Below are positions 38,031 to 44,943 of a stretch of 64,000 nucleotides of DNA, one piece after another. This DNA is from Bacteroidales bacterium (GTDB lineage Bacteria > Bacteroidota > Bacteroidia > Bacteroidales > UBA932): contig JAFQGK010000031.1 of NCBI GenBank assembly GCA_017398335.1, forward strand, positions 28,312 through 92,311. The letters are read 5' to 3'. How positions within the stretch are numbered: position 1 is the stretch's first letter; each line of letters opens with the position of its first letter. Made by a program: the position numbers and the translations under genes. A model generated the notes under the pieces. That model searched no databases and had not been told where the DNA came from. It worked only from the letters and a program-made list of their open reading frames with translations.

Positions 38031-40718
38031 ATGAGTATTGAAGAAATCGATCTCCCTGAAGAGGGTAAGAACGAGGAGGAAATTGTAGAAACTACGCCAG
38101 GCAAGTTTGACAGGCTGCTGGGAGAACACAGCAGGAAGTTCAAGCTTTCCGGAATGTTCAAGGACTGGTTCCTTGACTATTCTTCATATGTGATTCTGTA
38201 CAGAGCCGTTCCGCACATTGTGGATGGTATGAAACCTGTGCAGAGGCGTGTGCTTCATGCAATGTGGCGTATCGACGACGGCAGATATACCAAGGTTGCA
38301 AATATCGTGGGACAGGCGATGCAGTTCCATCCTCACGGCGACCAGTCGATCCTGGGTGCTCTCGTGCAGCTGGGACAGAAGAATTATCTGGTAGACTGCC
38401 AGGGTAACTGGGGTAACATCCTCACAGGCGATTCTAACGCGGCACCTCGATATATCGAGGCCCGTCTGAGCAAATTCGCAAAGGAGGTTGTCTTCAATCC
38501 GAAGACAACCAACTGGATGACTTCATACGACGGTCGTAACCAGGAGCCTGTAGAGCTTCCTATCAAATTCCCGCTCCTGCTAGCCCAAGGTACGGAAGGT
38601 ATTGCAGTCGGTCTTGCTTCAAAGATTCTTCCTCACAACTTCAATGAGCTGATCGATGCATCGATCGCCATTCTTCAGGGCAAGGATTTCGAGATATATC
38701 CGGACTTCCCTACCGGCGGTTATGCAGACTGCACGAAATATATGAAGGGTCAGAGAGGCGGAGTTGTCAAGGTGCGTGCAAAGATCGACAAGATCGACAA
38801 GAATACATTGGCTATCACCGAGATACCATATGGCAAGACGACTCATGTCATCATTGATTCCATCCTGAAGGCAAAGGATAAGGGCAAGATCAAGATCAAG
38901 AAGATCGAAGACCTAACAACCAAGACAGCCAATATCCTCATCCATCTTCCTAATGACGTATCTCCGGACAAGACAATAGATGCACTCTACGCATTCACTG
39001 ACTGCGAGGTGTCGATATCTCCGAACACATGTGTGATTGTGGATCACAAGCCTCAGTTCCTCAGTGTCGATGATGTTCTCCGCTACAGTACGGAGCACAC
39101 TAAGTCACTGCTGGGGCAGGAACTTCAGATAAGGCTGGACGAATTGGAGAACGAGTGGCACTACAGCTCGCTCGAGAAGATTTTCTTTGAGAACAAGGTA
39201 TATAAGATTCTCGAGAAAGATGCAGAAAGCTGGGAAGAACAGTTGAAGGCCGTTTTCGAGAAAATGTTGACATACCAGAAGCTCCTCAAGAGGCCTATCG
39301 TGATGGAAGACATCAACAAGCTTGTTGAGAAGCCGGTGAGGAAGATTTCCAAGTTTGATGTGAAGGCTGTCGAGGAGAAGCTCCGCGGCATAGAGGATGA
39401 GATGGACGAGGTACAGAATCATCTCGATCATCTCACTGACTTCACTATCAATTATTTCAAGAACCTCAAGAAGAAATACGGCAAGGACTATCCGCGTCTT
39501 ACAGAGTTGACAGGATTCGAATCAATCGCTGTCACCAGAGTCGTGAACAACAATGCGAAACTTTATGCGAACAAGGCTGAGGGTTTTGTAGGCATCAACC
39601 TGAAGAAGGAAGACAATGCTGAACTCATCTGCGAGTGTTCCGACCTTTCCGAGATAATCGTTATCCGTAAGGATGGAAAATATGTGGTGACCAAGGTTTC
39701 GGAGAAGGCCTTCTTCGGCAAGGATATCCTTTATGTGGGTGTATTCGACAGAAATGACCAGAGGACTATCTACAATGTGATCTATCGTGAAGGAAAGACT
39801 TCTGTCAGCTATGCGAAGAGGTTTGCCGTTACCAGTGTCACTCGCGACAAGGAATATGATATAACTCAGGGTACTCCAGGCTCGGTAATCCTTTGGTTCA
39901 CAGTCAATCACAACGCCGAGGCAGAGACTGTCAAGATATATTACAGGCAGCGTCCGAAGCTGAAGAAGCTTATTGATGAATATGATTTCTCTCAACTTCT
40001 GATCAAGGGACGTGCGTCGAGAGGTAATCTCGTATCCAAGAATTCCATACAGAAAATCCTTCTGAAGTCGAAGGGTGTTTCAACTATGGGCGGCAAGGAC
40101 ATCTGGTTTGACGAGGATATCCAGAGACTCAACGAAGACGAGCGTGGTCTGCATCTGGGTCAGTTCAATACCGGAGACCATATTCTGGCAATATTCAAGG
40201 ACGGAACATATTATACGACTTCATTCGACCTGAGCAACAGATATCAGGGTGAGCTGCTGAAGATCGAGAAGCTTGATGTCAACAAGGTATATACAGCGCT
40301 TTACTATGACAAGGGTGTGGGGGCTTTCTATGTGAAGAGGTTCTCATTCGATGTAAGCGACAACACACCGGTAAATTTCATCTCCGAATCAAAGGGGTCA
40401 TATCTTGTGGCTTTGAGCGACGACAAGCATCCTCAGTTCGAAATCACATTCGGTGGCAAGCATGAACACAGAGAGGCTGAAAATGTCGATGCGGAGGAGT
40501 TCATTGCAAAGAAGGGTCTTCAGGCTAAGGGTAAGAAAGTCAGCGCCATGGATGTCAAGTCGGTGAAGTTCATCGAACCTATTCACAGGCCGGAAGATGA
40601 TGTAAGGCAGGAAGAGTCTGAGGCTGAGAATCAGGCAGGTGAGATTGATAATTCTGATGTTGAGGAGGTTATCGACCTAGATGTTGCCGGAGAAGACGGA
40701 CAGCTTAGTTTATTCTGA
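38031..40718 (+). CDS. parC: DNA topoisomerase IV subunit A (ParC/GyrA family)
   Basis: An 895-residue type IIA topoisomerase A subunit that cuts and passes DNA to decatenate daughter chromosomes. It has the winged-helix region (KPVQRRVLHAMWRIDDGR, VGQAMQFHPHGDQSI) and the catalytic Tyr in SNAAPRYIEARL (about residue 141). A long coiled coil (about 400-480) and a C-terminal beta-propeller-like part follow, then an acidic tail. The GyrA-box motif was not seen and the N-terminus is shorter than typical GyrA, so ParC is preferred. No parE is next to it. Its stop overlaps aroK by one base. Confidence 0.9.
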   Translation: MSIEEIDLPEEGKNEEEIVETTPGKFDRLLGEHSRKFKLSGMFKDWFLDYSSYVILYRAVPHIVDGMKPVQRRVLHAMWRIDDGRYTKVANIVGQAMQFHPHGDQSILGALVQLGQKNYLVDCQGNWGNILTGDSNAAPRYIEARLSKFAKEVVFNPKTTNWMTSYDGRNQEPVELPIKFPLLLAQGTEGIAVGLASKILPHNFNELIDASIAILQGKDFEIYPDFPTGGYADCTKYMKGQRGGVVKVRAKIDKIDKNTLAITEIPYGKTTHVIIDSILKAKDKGKIKIKKIEDLTTKTANILIHLPNDVSPDKTIDALYAFTDCEVSISPNTCVIVDHKPQFLSVDDVLRYSTEHTKSLLGQELQIRLDELENEWHYSSLEKIFFENKVYKILEKDAESWEEQLKAVFEKMLTYQKLLKRPIVMEDINKLVEKPVRKISKFDVKAVEEKLRGIEDEMDEVQNHLDHLTDFTINYFKNLKKKYGKDYPRLTELTGFESIAVTRVVNNNAKLYANKAEGFVGINLKKEDNAELICECSDLSEIIVIRKDGKYVVTKVSEKAFFGKDILYVGVFDRNDQRTIYNVIYREGKTSVSYAKRFAVTSVTRDKEYDITQGTPGSVILWFTVNHNAEAETVKIYYRQRPKLKKLIDEYDFSQLLIKGRASRGNLVSKNSIQKILLKSKGVSTMGGKDIWFDEDIQRLNEDERGLHLGQFNTGDHILAIFKDGTYYTTSFDLSNRYQGELLKIEKLDVNKVYTALYYDKGVGAFYVKRFSFDVSDNTPVNFISESKGSYLVALSDDKHPQFEITFGGKHEHREAENVDAEEFIAKKGLQAKGKKVSAMDVKSVKFIEPIHRPEDDVRQEESEAENQAGEIDNSDVEEVIDLDVAGEDGQLSLF

Positions 40719-41347
40719 TGATAATAACATTGACAGGATTTATGGGATGCGGCAAGAGCAGTGTCGGGAGGAGACTCTCGGAGCTGCTCTGCTGTCCTTT
40801 TATGGACCTGGATTCTATCATTGAAGAGTACGCGGGAAAAAGTATTCCGGAGATTTTCGCCACAGAAGGAGAAGCGGCGTTCCGACAGATGGAACTGGAA
40901 GCACTACGTACTATTATCGGTCATTCCGATAGCCTGAGTGCTCCATTGGCCCCCTCCCACAGCATAGCTGCGGGCCCCTCCCCCTACCCGGGGGTGGGAA
41001 AATGCCAATTCCGCACATCAGACTACCGGAATGACAGCAAAAGGCACCTGGTCATTGCACTGGGAGGAGGGACAGTGATGACGCCTGAATGTGCAGAACT
41101 GGTGCAGAACAACACACGCTGCATATATCTGAAGGCTTCGGTGGAGACTCTGGTAGAGCATCTTGATAATGAAGCAGATAAAAGGCCTCTGCTCTCCGGA
41201 GGCGATCTGCGCACCCGGATTGAGAATCTGATGTCCCGGCGTTCGGCAACATACGAAAGGACAGCCCATATGATCATAGATACAGACGGAAAGACTGTGG
41301 ATGAGATCGCCTCAGCCATCTCATATGCGTGGAGCACAAAGCACTAA
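40718..41347 (+). CDS. aroK: Shikimate kinase with in-frame palindromic insertion
   Basis: Phosphorylates shikimate at the 3-hydroxyl in chorismate synthesis. It has Walker A GFMGCGKSS (7-15), DLDSIIEEYAG (shikimate-binding Asp), the ATEGEAAFRQME segment and LVIALGGGTV (Walker B, from about 111). The protein has 209 residues while the family has about 170-175. The excess is residues 68-107 (from GHSDSL to RNDS), encoded by a nested palindrome (40920-41035). The insertion falls in the loop between the helix ALRTII and the strand LVIALGGG, so activity may be kept. The start overlaps the parC stop as TGATG. Confidence 0.93.
   Translation: MIITLTGFMGCGKSSVGRRLSELLCCPFMDLDSIIEEYAGKSIPEIFATEGEAAFRQMELEALRTIIGHSDSLSAPLAPSHSIAAGPSPYPGVGKCQFRTSDYRNDSKRHLVIALGGGTVMTPECAELVQNNTRCIYLKASVETLVEHLDNEADKRPLLSGGDLRTRIENLMSRRSATYERTAHMIIDTDGKTVDEIASAISYAWSTKH
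40920..41035. repeat. Nested palindromic element inside aroK
   Basis: A 116-base imperfect palindrome. The outer arms are TCATTCCG (40921-40928) with CGGAATGA (41027-41034); inside them AG-CTGA pairs with TCAG-CT, and ATTGGC pairs with GCCAAT. The core holds two smaller hairpins: CCCACAGC/GCTGCGGG and CCC-CCCCC/GGGGG-GGG, each with one mismatch. The core (TCCCAC, then GGGCCCCT, then AATGCCA) resembles the palindrome after lysS. The frame stays open through it. Confidence 0.9.
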
Positions 41348-43309: not shown

Positions 43310-44824
43310 ATGAGCATAATGGACCTCAACGAGCAGGAGCAGTTCAGAAGAGAATCGCTTGCAAAGCTCAGAGAACTTGGAATCGAGCCTTATCCGGCTG
43401 CCCTCTACCCTATCAACACATCTGCAGCACAGGTGAAGGCGGAGTACGACGAGGAGAAAGGTAATTTCCAGGACGTAGTGATCGCCGGACGTATCATGTC
43501 AAGACGTATCATGGGCGCCGCTTCGTTCGGAGAACTTCAGGACGAGACAGGACGTATACAGATCTATGTAAACCGTGACGAGATCTGCTCTGGTGAAGAC
43601 AAGACAATGTACAATACAGTATGGAAGAAACTTCTTGACATCGGAGACATCGTGGGAATCAAGGGATTCGCTTTCATCACCAAGACAGGACAGCTTTCAA
43701 TCCACGCAAAGGAGCTGACTCTCCTCAGCAAGTCTCTCCGTGTCCTTCCTATCGTGAAGGAGAAGGACGGCGAGGTGTTCGATGCTTTCTCGGATCCTGA
43801 GCTCAAGTACAGACAGAGATATGTGGACCTGATCGTAAACCCTCAGGTACGCGACACATTCATCAAGAGAAGCCAGATCGTGGCTACAATGCGTGAGTAC
43901 TTCAACGAGGCAGGCTGCCTTGAGGTGGAGACTCCTATCCTCCAGAGCATCCCTGGCGGTGCTACAGCGCGTCCGTTCATCACTCACCACAACGCCCTCG
44001 ACATTCCTCTCTACCTCCGTATCGCAAACGAGCTCTACCTCAAGAGACTCATCGTCGGTGGATACCACGGAGTGTACGAGTTCGCAAAAGACTTCCGCAA
44101 CGAGGGTATGGACAAGACCCACAACCCTGAGTTCACATGCATGGAGATATACGTGGCATACAAGGACTATATCTGGATGATGGAGTTCGTGGAGAAGCTT
44201 CTCGAGAAGATCGCCCTCAAGCTCCACGGCAAGACAGAGGTCACAATCGGAGAGAACCAGGTGGACTTCAAGCCGCCGTTCCGCCGCCTCCCTATCCTCG
44301 AGGCCATCAAGGAATATGCAGGCGTTGACGTTGCAGGCATGAACGAGGATGAGCTCCGCGAGACCTGCAAGAAACTCCATGTGGAGACAGATCCATCATT
44401 CGGAAAGGGCAAGCTCATCGATGCAATCTTCGGCGAGTACTGCGAGAAGCACCTCACCCAGCCTACATTCATCACAGACTATCCTGTGGAGATGTCACCG
44501 CTTACAAAGCGCCACCGTACAAATCCTGAGCTTACAGAGCGTTTCGAACTCTTCGTATGCGGCAAGGAGCTTGCTAACGCATACAGCGAGCTGAACGACC
44601 CTATCGACCAGTACGAGCGTTTCCAGGATCAGCTCAAGCTCAAGGACAAGGGAGATGACGAGGCTATGTTCATCGATATGGACTTCGTACGCGCACTCGA
44701 GTACGGTATGCCTCCAACATCAGGACTCGGTATGGGAATAGACCGTCTGACCATGTTCATGACCAACTCCCCTACTATCCAGGATGTGCTCTTCTTCCCT
44801 CAGATGAGGCCTAAGAGTCTGTAA
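43310..44824 (+). CDS. lysS: Lysyl-tRNA synthetase, class II
   Basis: A 504-residue class II synthetase. It has an OB-fold anticodon domain (about 60-150, [30 protein letters not shown]), motif 1 around [17 protein letters not shown], motif 2 [21 protein letters not shown] (quoted in part: [15 protein letters not shown]), and motif 3 [15 protein letters not shown] near the end. It is monocistronic and followed by a large palindrome. Confidence 0.98.
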
Positions 44825-44834
44825 TAGATATCCT

Positions 44835-44943
44835 TAAATAAAATTCCAAGGCTGTACAGCCGGTGGTCCTTCCCACTACCGTGGGCCCCTTCCCTTTTCG
44901 GGAGCCAATGCCACCTTGCCGTACAGCCTTGGAATTTTATTTA
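44835..44943. repeat. Nested palindrome after lysS, 23-bp perfect arms
   Basis: Left arm 44835-44857 and right arm 44921-44943 are perfect inverted repeats of 23 bases (AATTCCAAGGCTGTAC and its complement within them). Inside, GGTGG (44862-44866) pairs with CCACC (44911-44915). The core has CCCAC/GTGGG and CCC/GGG hairpins and shares TTCCCAC, GTGGGCCCCT and AATGCCA with the element inside aroK. Ending in TTTTATTT, it probably also terminates lysS; read on the other strand it follows the DUF1232 gene. Confidence 0.9.

Follow-up and report, generated by a model that had tools for sequence, protein, structure and literature searches.

The shikimate kinase gene (aroK) that we examined contains one copy of a structured core that is dispersed in a genus of Bacteroidales, with copies both in intergenic DNA and, in frame, within genes. 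Most of the copies that we read lie between two arms that are complementary to each other and specific to the site. On balance, we favor the view that these are copies of a non-coding mobile element whose insertion adds the core and an inverted copy of the adjacent target.

The insertion in aroK

We analyzed a window of 64,000 nucleotides from a host genome of 2.21 Mb in 73 contigs. Within the window, aroK is an ORF at 40718..41347 on the + strand that encodes, with its insert, a protein of 209 amino acids, and this protein matches SKI from Pfam in two stretches (2.1e-41). Residues 6-73 and 75-154 of a solved shikimate kinase (1l4u_A) align to residues 4-71 and 112-193 of AroK, while residues 72-111 of AroK (about 40) correspond to a single residue of 1l4u_A, in a loop directly before the ALGGG strand. 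The first-pass annotation had proposed that a palindrome, inserted in frame, adds about 40 residues to AroK, and that it lies in a tolerant loop. The alignment, in which solved homologs lack residues 72-111, supports the extra residues, and the description as a tolerant loop was also right. The palindrome itself is apparent from predicted folds, with a long stem around two GC-rich hairpins: the RNA fold of 40914-41040 has −61.6 kcal/mol (z = −6.2), the corresponding DNA fold has z = −5.1, and in each case 0 of 200 shuffles were as good. An empty aroK site was also found in a relative, G021 (locus L010). The insert in aroK is probably a tolerated extension of the loop.

As delimited by folding and by the match to the core, the whole element spans 40920..41035, and the − strand, which is antisense to aroK, is probably the one that folds. 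The element begins and ends with arms that are specific to this locus: the upstream arm, GTCATTCCGATAGCCTGA (40920..40937), pairs with the downstream arm, TCAGACTACCGGAATGAC (41018..41035). The arms have two mismatches, which are A.C on the + strand and hence G.U on the − strand. Between them, the − strand is predicted to form an inner helix (ATTGGC/GCCAAT; 40945..41009 including the part it encloses). The conserved core matches our covariance model R1 at 40948..40998 on the − strand (67.7 bits, E = 1.1e-14 in the window); this copy is among the 25 used to build the model. Hairpin 2 of the core (40956..40974, − strand) is supported by the fold and by comparison of the cores; that comparison also gives stem 1 (40980-40984 with 40990-40994) and a pseudoknot (40987-40989 with 40996-40998), which together occupy 40980..40998 of the − strand. 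The first-pass annotation had correctly located the outer arms, the two inner hairpins, and the ATTGGC/GCCAAT pair, but, given 25 related cores, the inner part amounts to one hairpin and one stem with an H-type pseudoknot, and it is best read on the antisense strand.

A conserved core with variable arms

BLAST with all 116 bases found a single full copy in the element's own genome. Genomes from the same genus gave many partial matches, often limited to the center. The search finds just one full copy because the copies share only the core, and their arms differ. We found 30 cores and aligned 25 of them (on the strand antisense to aroK) to build model R1. In this alignment, the core is about 50 nt and comprises a 5-bp stem, a hairpin flanked by AGGGGCCC and GGGAGGG, and a 3-bp H-type pseudoknot. 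Overall, 99.2% of cells pair, versus 85.6% in shuffles, and every pseudoknot cell pairs; since we derived the structure manually from the same 25 sequences, the slide control is biased in its favor. The pseudoknot pairs are kept in 25 of 25 copies, and two of the three pairs have changes on both sides.

With up to 28 candidates scored in each genome, the covariance model matched 177 of 200 genomes from the genus at E ≤ 0.01. The element's own genome has 12 places at E ≤ 10, 9 of which are at E ≤ 0.01, so the first-pass expectation of other copies in the genome was correct. Its idea of one conserved palindrome was not, as the core is conserved and the arms vary by site. The window contains a second, more diverged copy just after lysS (43310-44824), at 44835..44943 on the − strand (E = 0.00058 in the window), with perfect 23-bp arms (44835-44857 and 44921-44943) around a core match at 44864-44912. 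In a sample from across the order, just 6 of 393 genomes matched at E ≤ 1e-4: the element's own genome, one other from the genus, and four from outside the genus (G325, G227, G377, and G407). Nine element loci had no match in Rfam at E ≤ 1.

Relatives that were retrieved via lpxB are mostly Bacteroidales, and many are from ruminant hindgut samples. They include Candidatus Cryptobacteroides, at 59-65% identity, and we infer the name of the genus from this. Some copies ride in larger repeats: L308, L315, and L318 in G227, and L128 and L129 in G021, are at contig ends within a longer repeated stretch. Seven viral contigs (L374-L380) also fit a core pattern, with a GC-rich palindromic repeat, but their best arms score just 5-6 and we dropped them. 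By eye, we take the ORFs of these contigs to be alphaproteobacterial.

For 117 distinct copies, we scored the inverted arms on either side of the core. The score was at least 12 for 95 of these, versus 6 of 1,389 random control placements in the same loci, and arms with such scores are 12-41 bp long. The arms have weak sequence preferences: GGGTR is present in 19 of 56 distinct arms (the shuffled mean is 4.1 and the maximum is 11) and begins exactly 19 nt from the inner end in 8 of those 19, and inner ends tend to be AAAAC-like. Otherwise arms can be quite different even if the cores are the same. In G007, four copies (L119-L122) have an identical core of 51 nt and four different arms of 28-32 nt, which are alike solely in the inner AAAC end and in G-rich patches. 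Among nine groups of copies with identical cores (45-51 nt), the arms differ in six, although one of these pairs has weak arm scores (L187/L188) and another is at one orthologous place (L081/L083). In the other three groups the arms are the same or nearly so, and we take these to be orthologous copies. G325, from outside the genus, also has copies with identical cores and different arms. As identical cores have different arms, the arms are not simply carried along with the core.

The arms can also stay complementary, or become so again, after insertion, because orthologous copies show paired changes in their arms. Between G088 and G173, which are about 92% identical and whose cores match fully or nearly so where they share a site, there is one paired change in the ribF copy and two in the copy at C7:232895. 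At one intergenic place that these genomes share (C5:122746 in G088, C38:50811 in G173; L397 and L396), the identical core is inverted and the arms are different. There must also have been repeat insertion at favored sites, inversion, or conversion. We found no clean empty site at the strain level. The element does not account for seven length gaps (66-116 nt) between G088 and G173. Several gaps of 66-94 nt (G088:C7 versus G173:C35) are in apparent genes of G088 and are perhaps assembly errors, and one stretch of 116 nt that is present only in G173 (compared to G088:C7) has two strong hairpins of another kind.

The folded strand is probably the one that is antisense to aroK. On that strand, the non-Watson-Crick pairs that are kept in the core are U.G pairs. 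Furthermore, mismatches in the arms, across 2,227 bp, include 36 G.T, 16 A.C, and 22 others when read on that strand. This bias is modest (P = 0.008, binomial test for 36/52), and some rows are orthologous, which makes it softer than the P value. Together, these sequence features are what point to the antisense strand.

Insertions within conserved genes

We listed 24 ORFs that span a copy of the element and scanned 20 of them. Of these 20, 18 had a hit to a family in NCBIfam at E ≤ 1e-8, although several scored below the curated cut-off; the other two (L053 and L179) had no NCBIfam match. The families are lpxB, a MocR/PdxR-like regulator, trmB (2 ORFs), prmC, metH, mtaB (3), ribF (2), metG, a DsbD-like protein, truB (2), purD, a dihydrolipoyl acyltransferase, and tilS. 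The matching stretch runs across the copy in 8 of the 18 ORFs; in 7, two stretches or two families lie around the copy; and in 3 (L002, L045, and L175), the stretch is on one side of it. Relative to the folded strand, 11 of these genes are antisense and 7 are sense. The in-frame inserts in the ORFs of conserved genes amount to 33-48 residues. Palindromic elements that survive inside coding genes of Bacteroidota, which the first-pass annotation had raised, are thus found in named families well beyond aroK. In a large gut lineage, the presence of the element in frame in the ORFs of conserved enzymes (aroK, lpxB, ribF, mtaB, truB, metG, and others) leads to longer proteins.

A test based on codon scores classified 14 of 103 copies as being within genes and 85 as not or unclear; two were too near an end, and two (in lpxB) scored best on the other strand, with a stop. 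This test is conservative and missed the aroK copy itself. Many of the intergenic copies begin, by eye, beside stop codons.

Is one arm native?

At the junction of rnfC and rnfD, we fetched 30 loci and read 27 rnfC ends: 5 carriers (the element's own genome, G026, G024, G021, and G032), G007, and 21 without the element. In the carriers, one arm coincides with the 3' end of rnfC and takes in the stop codon. The motif [RK]-x-R falls within that arm and is present at this place in all 27 rnfC ends (aligned by eye). The other, copied arm differs alone, by uncompensated drift, in G026, G024, and G021. At the level of sequence, these comparisons establish that an arm at rnfC is of native origin. Among the 21 junctions without the element, 17 were measurable; they are 2-41 nt and have no long palindrome by eye. 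The junction in G007 (L144) has a hairpin without a core, with its own arms and a loop of 16 nt, which is perhaps a decayed copy.

For lpxB, we looked at 41 of 49 loci and read 29 loops, of which 6 have the core between arms, 14 have none, and 9 have apparent remnants or other long loops. The element is antisense in the lpxB of G000 and G026 and is in the opposite orientation in G021; G032, G029, and G020 lack it. Among the six carriers in the 29 loops, L251 (which is the G026 sequence), L258, and L284 are antisense, and L253, L256, and L257 are sense. In the four antisense carriers (G000, L251, L258, and L284), the upstream arm encodes V-[WY]-x-x-x-[QR]. We read 18 distinct non-carriers (the 14 plus G029, G020, G012, and G059), and in 6 of the 18, Q or R follows an aromatic residue or H with the same spacing (G032, G020, L271, L274, L280, and G029). 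The upstream arm at lpxB is probably native, to judge from this similarity.

The length of the lpxB loop does not decide the matter, because the loops of non-carriers vary too widely: eight have 7-13 residues, three have 4, 11, and 16 residues, and the loop is absent from the other seven. In the nearest non-carrier (G032), GLV is preceded by 11 residues. If the core and the downstream arm are discounted (by eye), then G000 and L251 also have 11 and L258 and L284 have 10. The sense copies fit neither length expectation. The longer loops of non-carriers could resemble the arm due to an ancient insertion that later decayed. The hairpins without cores at L252 and L254 can likewise be decayed copies. 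At 12 non-carrier sites, we saw no palindrome by eye. Between G000 and L251, which are orthologous, the arms have paired changes at five positions.

The loop in aroK points the other way. The empty loop has 13 residues in G021 and, by eye, 14-20 in others. For aroK of G007 and G026, 23-24 residues are left when one arm is discounted and 13-16 when both are, so these lengths fit the addition of both arms better than the addition of one.

Candidates for the mobilizing enzyme

Within the genus, Y1 transposases (Y1_Tnp) were found in 20 of 20 element-rich genomes but only 6 of 20 element-less genomes (P = 3e-6, Fisher exact test; 15 versus 4 above Pfam's cut-off). We chose these 40 genomes by how many elements they have, and the Y1 counts carry no correction for kinship. 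However, none of the four carriers from outside the genus (G325, G227, G377, and G407) has a match to Y1_Tnp, even though each is at least 96% complete, while Y1_Tnp is present in 14 of 17 genomes from other families of the order (G037-G053) that lack the element at E ≤ 1e-4. Also, the R1 core had no match at E ≤ 10 in nine Y1 loci that were searched together with flanks of up to about 1.5 kb each. A Y1 transposase as the required mobilizer is therefore supported within the genus and contradicted by the four carriers. In the element's own genome, a different long hairpin (L057:670-860, with perfect arms of 13 bp and 94 nt between them) lies directly after a Y1 transposase gene.

Reverse transcriptase was rejected as a candidate, as RVT_1 shows no association with the element (7 of 20 rich genomes and 7 of 20 lacking genomes). 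Among the neighbors of copies in the four genomes from outside the genus (20 stretches of up to 20 kb), there was no obvious shared mobile gene. We name no enzyme, because Y1 is absent from four carriers and present in element-less genomes, and the Y1 loci have no core.

How the element might insert

In the route that we consider likely, the free 3' end of the target (X) would first be lengthened by a copy of the core. This copy would fold back on itself, and from its 3' end, primed on X, synthesis would copy some 20-30 nt of X before the product is joined to the downstream target (Y). A site X-Y would become X-core-X'-Y, for a net insert of the core and an inverted copy of the target. Inside genes, selection would keep the inserts that leave the reading frame open. 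As to chemistry, we tentatively suggest a new mode of transposition, in which a pseudoknotted core, of RNA or single-stranded DNA, is copied onto the 3' end of the target and folds back to copy it, so that each insertion builds a unique inverted repeat.

Instead, the arms might travel with the element and diverge quickly while staying complementary, through arm conversion or selection on a structured RNA, with gene conversion keeping the cores identical. The paired changes between orthologous copies (five in lpxB of G000 and L251, one in ribF, and two at C7:232895) would be expected, and the loop lengths of aroK in G007 and G026 and the full or near identity of cores where G088 and G173 share a site are also in its favor. 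Nevertheless, we think that travelling arms are unlikely, as identical cores have different arms of 28-32 nt within one genome, an arm matches the native rnfC of non-carriers and resembles that of lpxB, and the copied arm at rnfC drifts without compensation. Another explanation, which we consider quite improbable, is that a Y1 (HUH) tyrosine transposase recognizes and moves the folded single strand, as in REP/RAYT systems, and that the inverted arm is copied before re-ligation. This would account for the strand-specific folding and for the Y1_Tnp association within the genus (20/20 versus 6/20), but that association rests on 40 genomes picked by element count and uncorrected for kinship, G325, G227, G377, and G407 carry the element with no match to Y1_Tnp, nine Y1 loci have no core match, and 14 of 17 genomes from other families have Y1_Tnp and not the element.

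It seems very improbable that the element inserts into the loops of pre-existing palindromes such as terminators. Although many intergenic copies start beside stop codons (by eye) and the rnfC-rnfD junction of G007 has a hairpin without a core, no long palindrome is apparent by eye in the 17 measurable element-less junctions or at the 12 lpxB non-carrier sites, and hairpins without cores can be decayed copies (as for L252 and L254). We give almost no credence to the first-pass proposal of a classical repeat like the Rickettsia palindromic elements (RPE), with one conserved palindrome: it would explain in-frame inserts of 33-48 residues in the ORFs of conserved genes, but the arms are not conserved between copies.

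Comparison with known elements

Mobile elements are known to leave direct duplications of the target, no duplication, or deletions of the target, so inverted copying of the target, if true, would be a different insertion chemistry. The titles and abstract openings that our literature searches gave make no mention of inverted arms that are made at the site. In template switching at quasipalindromes, the nascent strand makes self-templated inverted copies; no mobile core is known to be inserted there, unlike for our element. Classical DNA transposons and MITEs have conserved terminal inverted repeats, while the element's arms are specific to each site.

Some of the double-hairpin or repetitive hairpin-forming elements of mitochondria are inside genes, and those of Allomyces have no flanking duplication and possibly an RNA route, according to the available part of PMC2800124. 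Unlike for our element, that part mentions no pseudoknot or site-specific inverted arms. REP elements with RAYT (TnpA-REP) transposases are, as outlined in PMC6006769, dispersed hairpins. Our element is also a dispersed hairpin, and Y1 proteins are present in the element-rich genomes of the genus that we tested. Compared to that outline, the element differs in having a pseudoknotted core of about 50 nt and arms that are not conserved, with no core beside nine Y1 genes and with four carriers that lack Y1.

RPEs are palindromes of about 150 bp that lie in frame in unrelated genes, and each family has a conserved encoded peptide (PMC10969869, in part). Judging from this description, RPEs and our element are both found in frame inside conserved coding genes (aroK, and 18 of 20 scanned ORFs), but the element has just a core of about 50 nt and site-specific arms in place of a conserved peptide. 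The likeness to RPEs in the first-pass annotation thus stands for in-frame behavior and not for membership, as arms differ between copies with identical cores. Overall, the element offers a natural experiment, outside Rickettsia, on which insertions proteins can tolerate.
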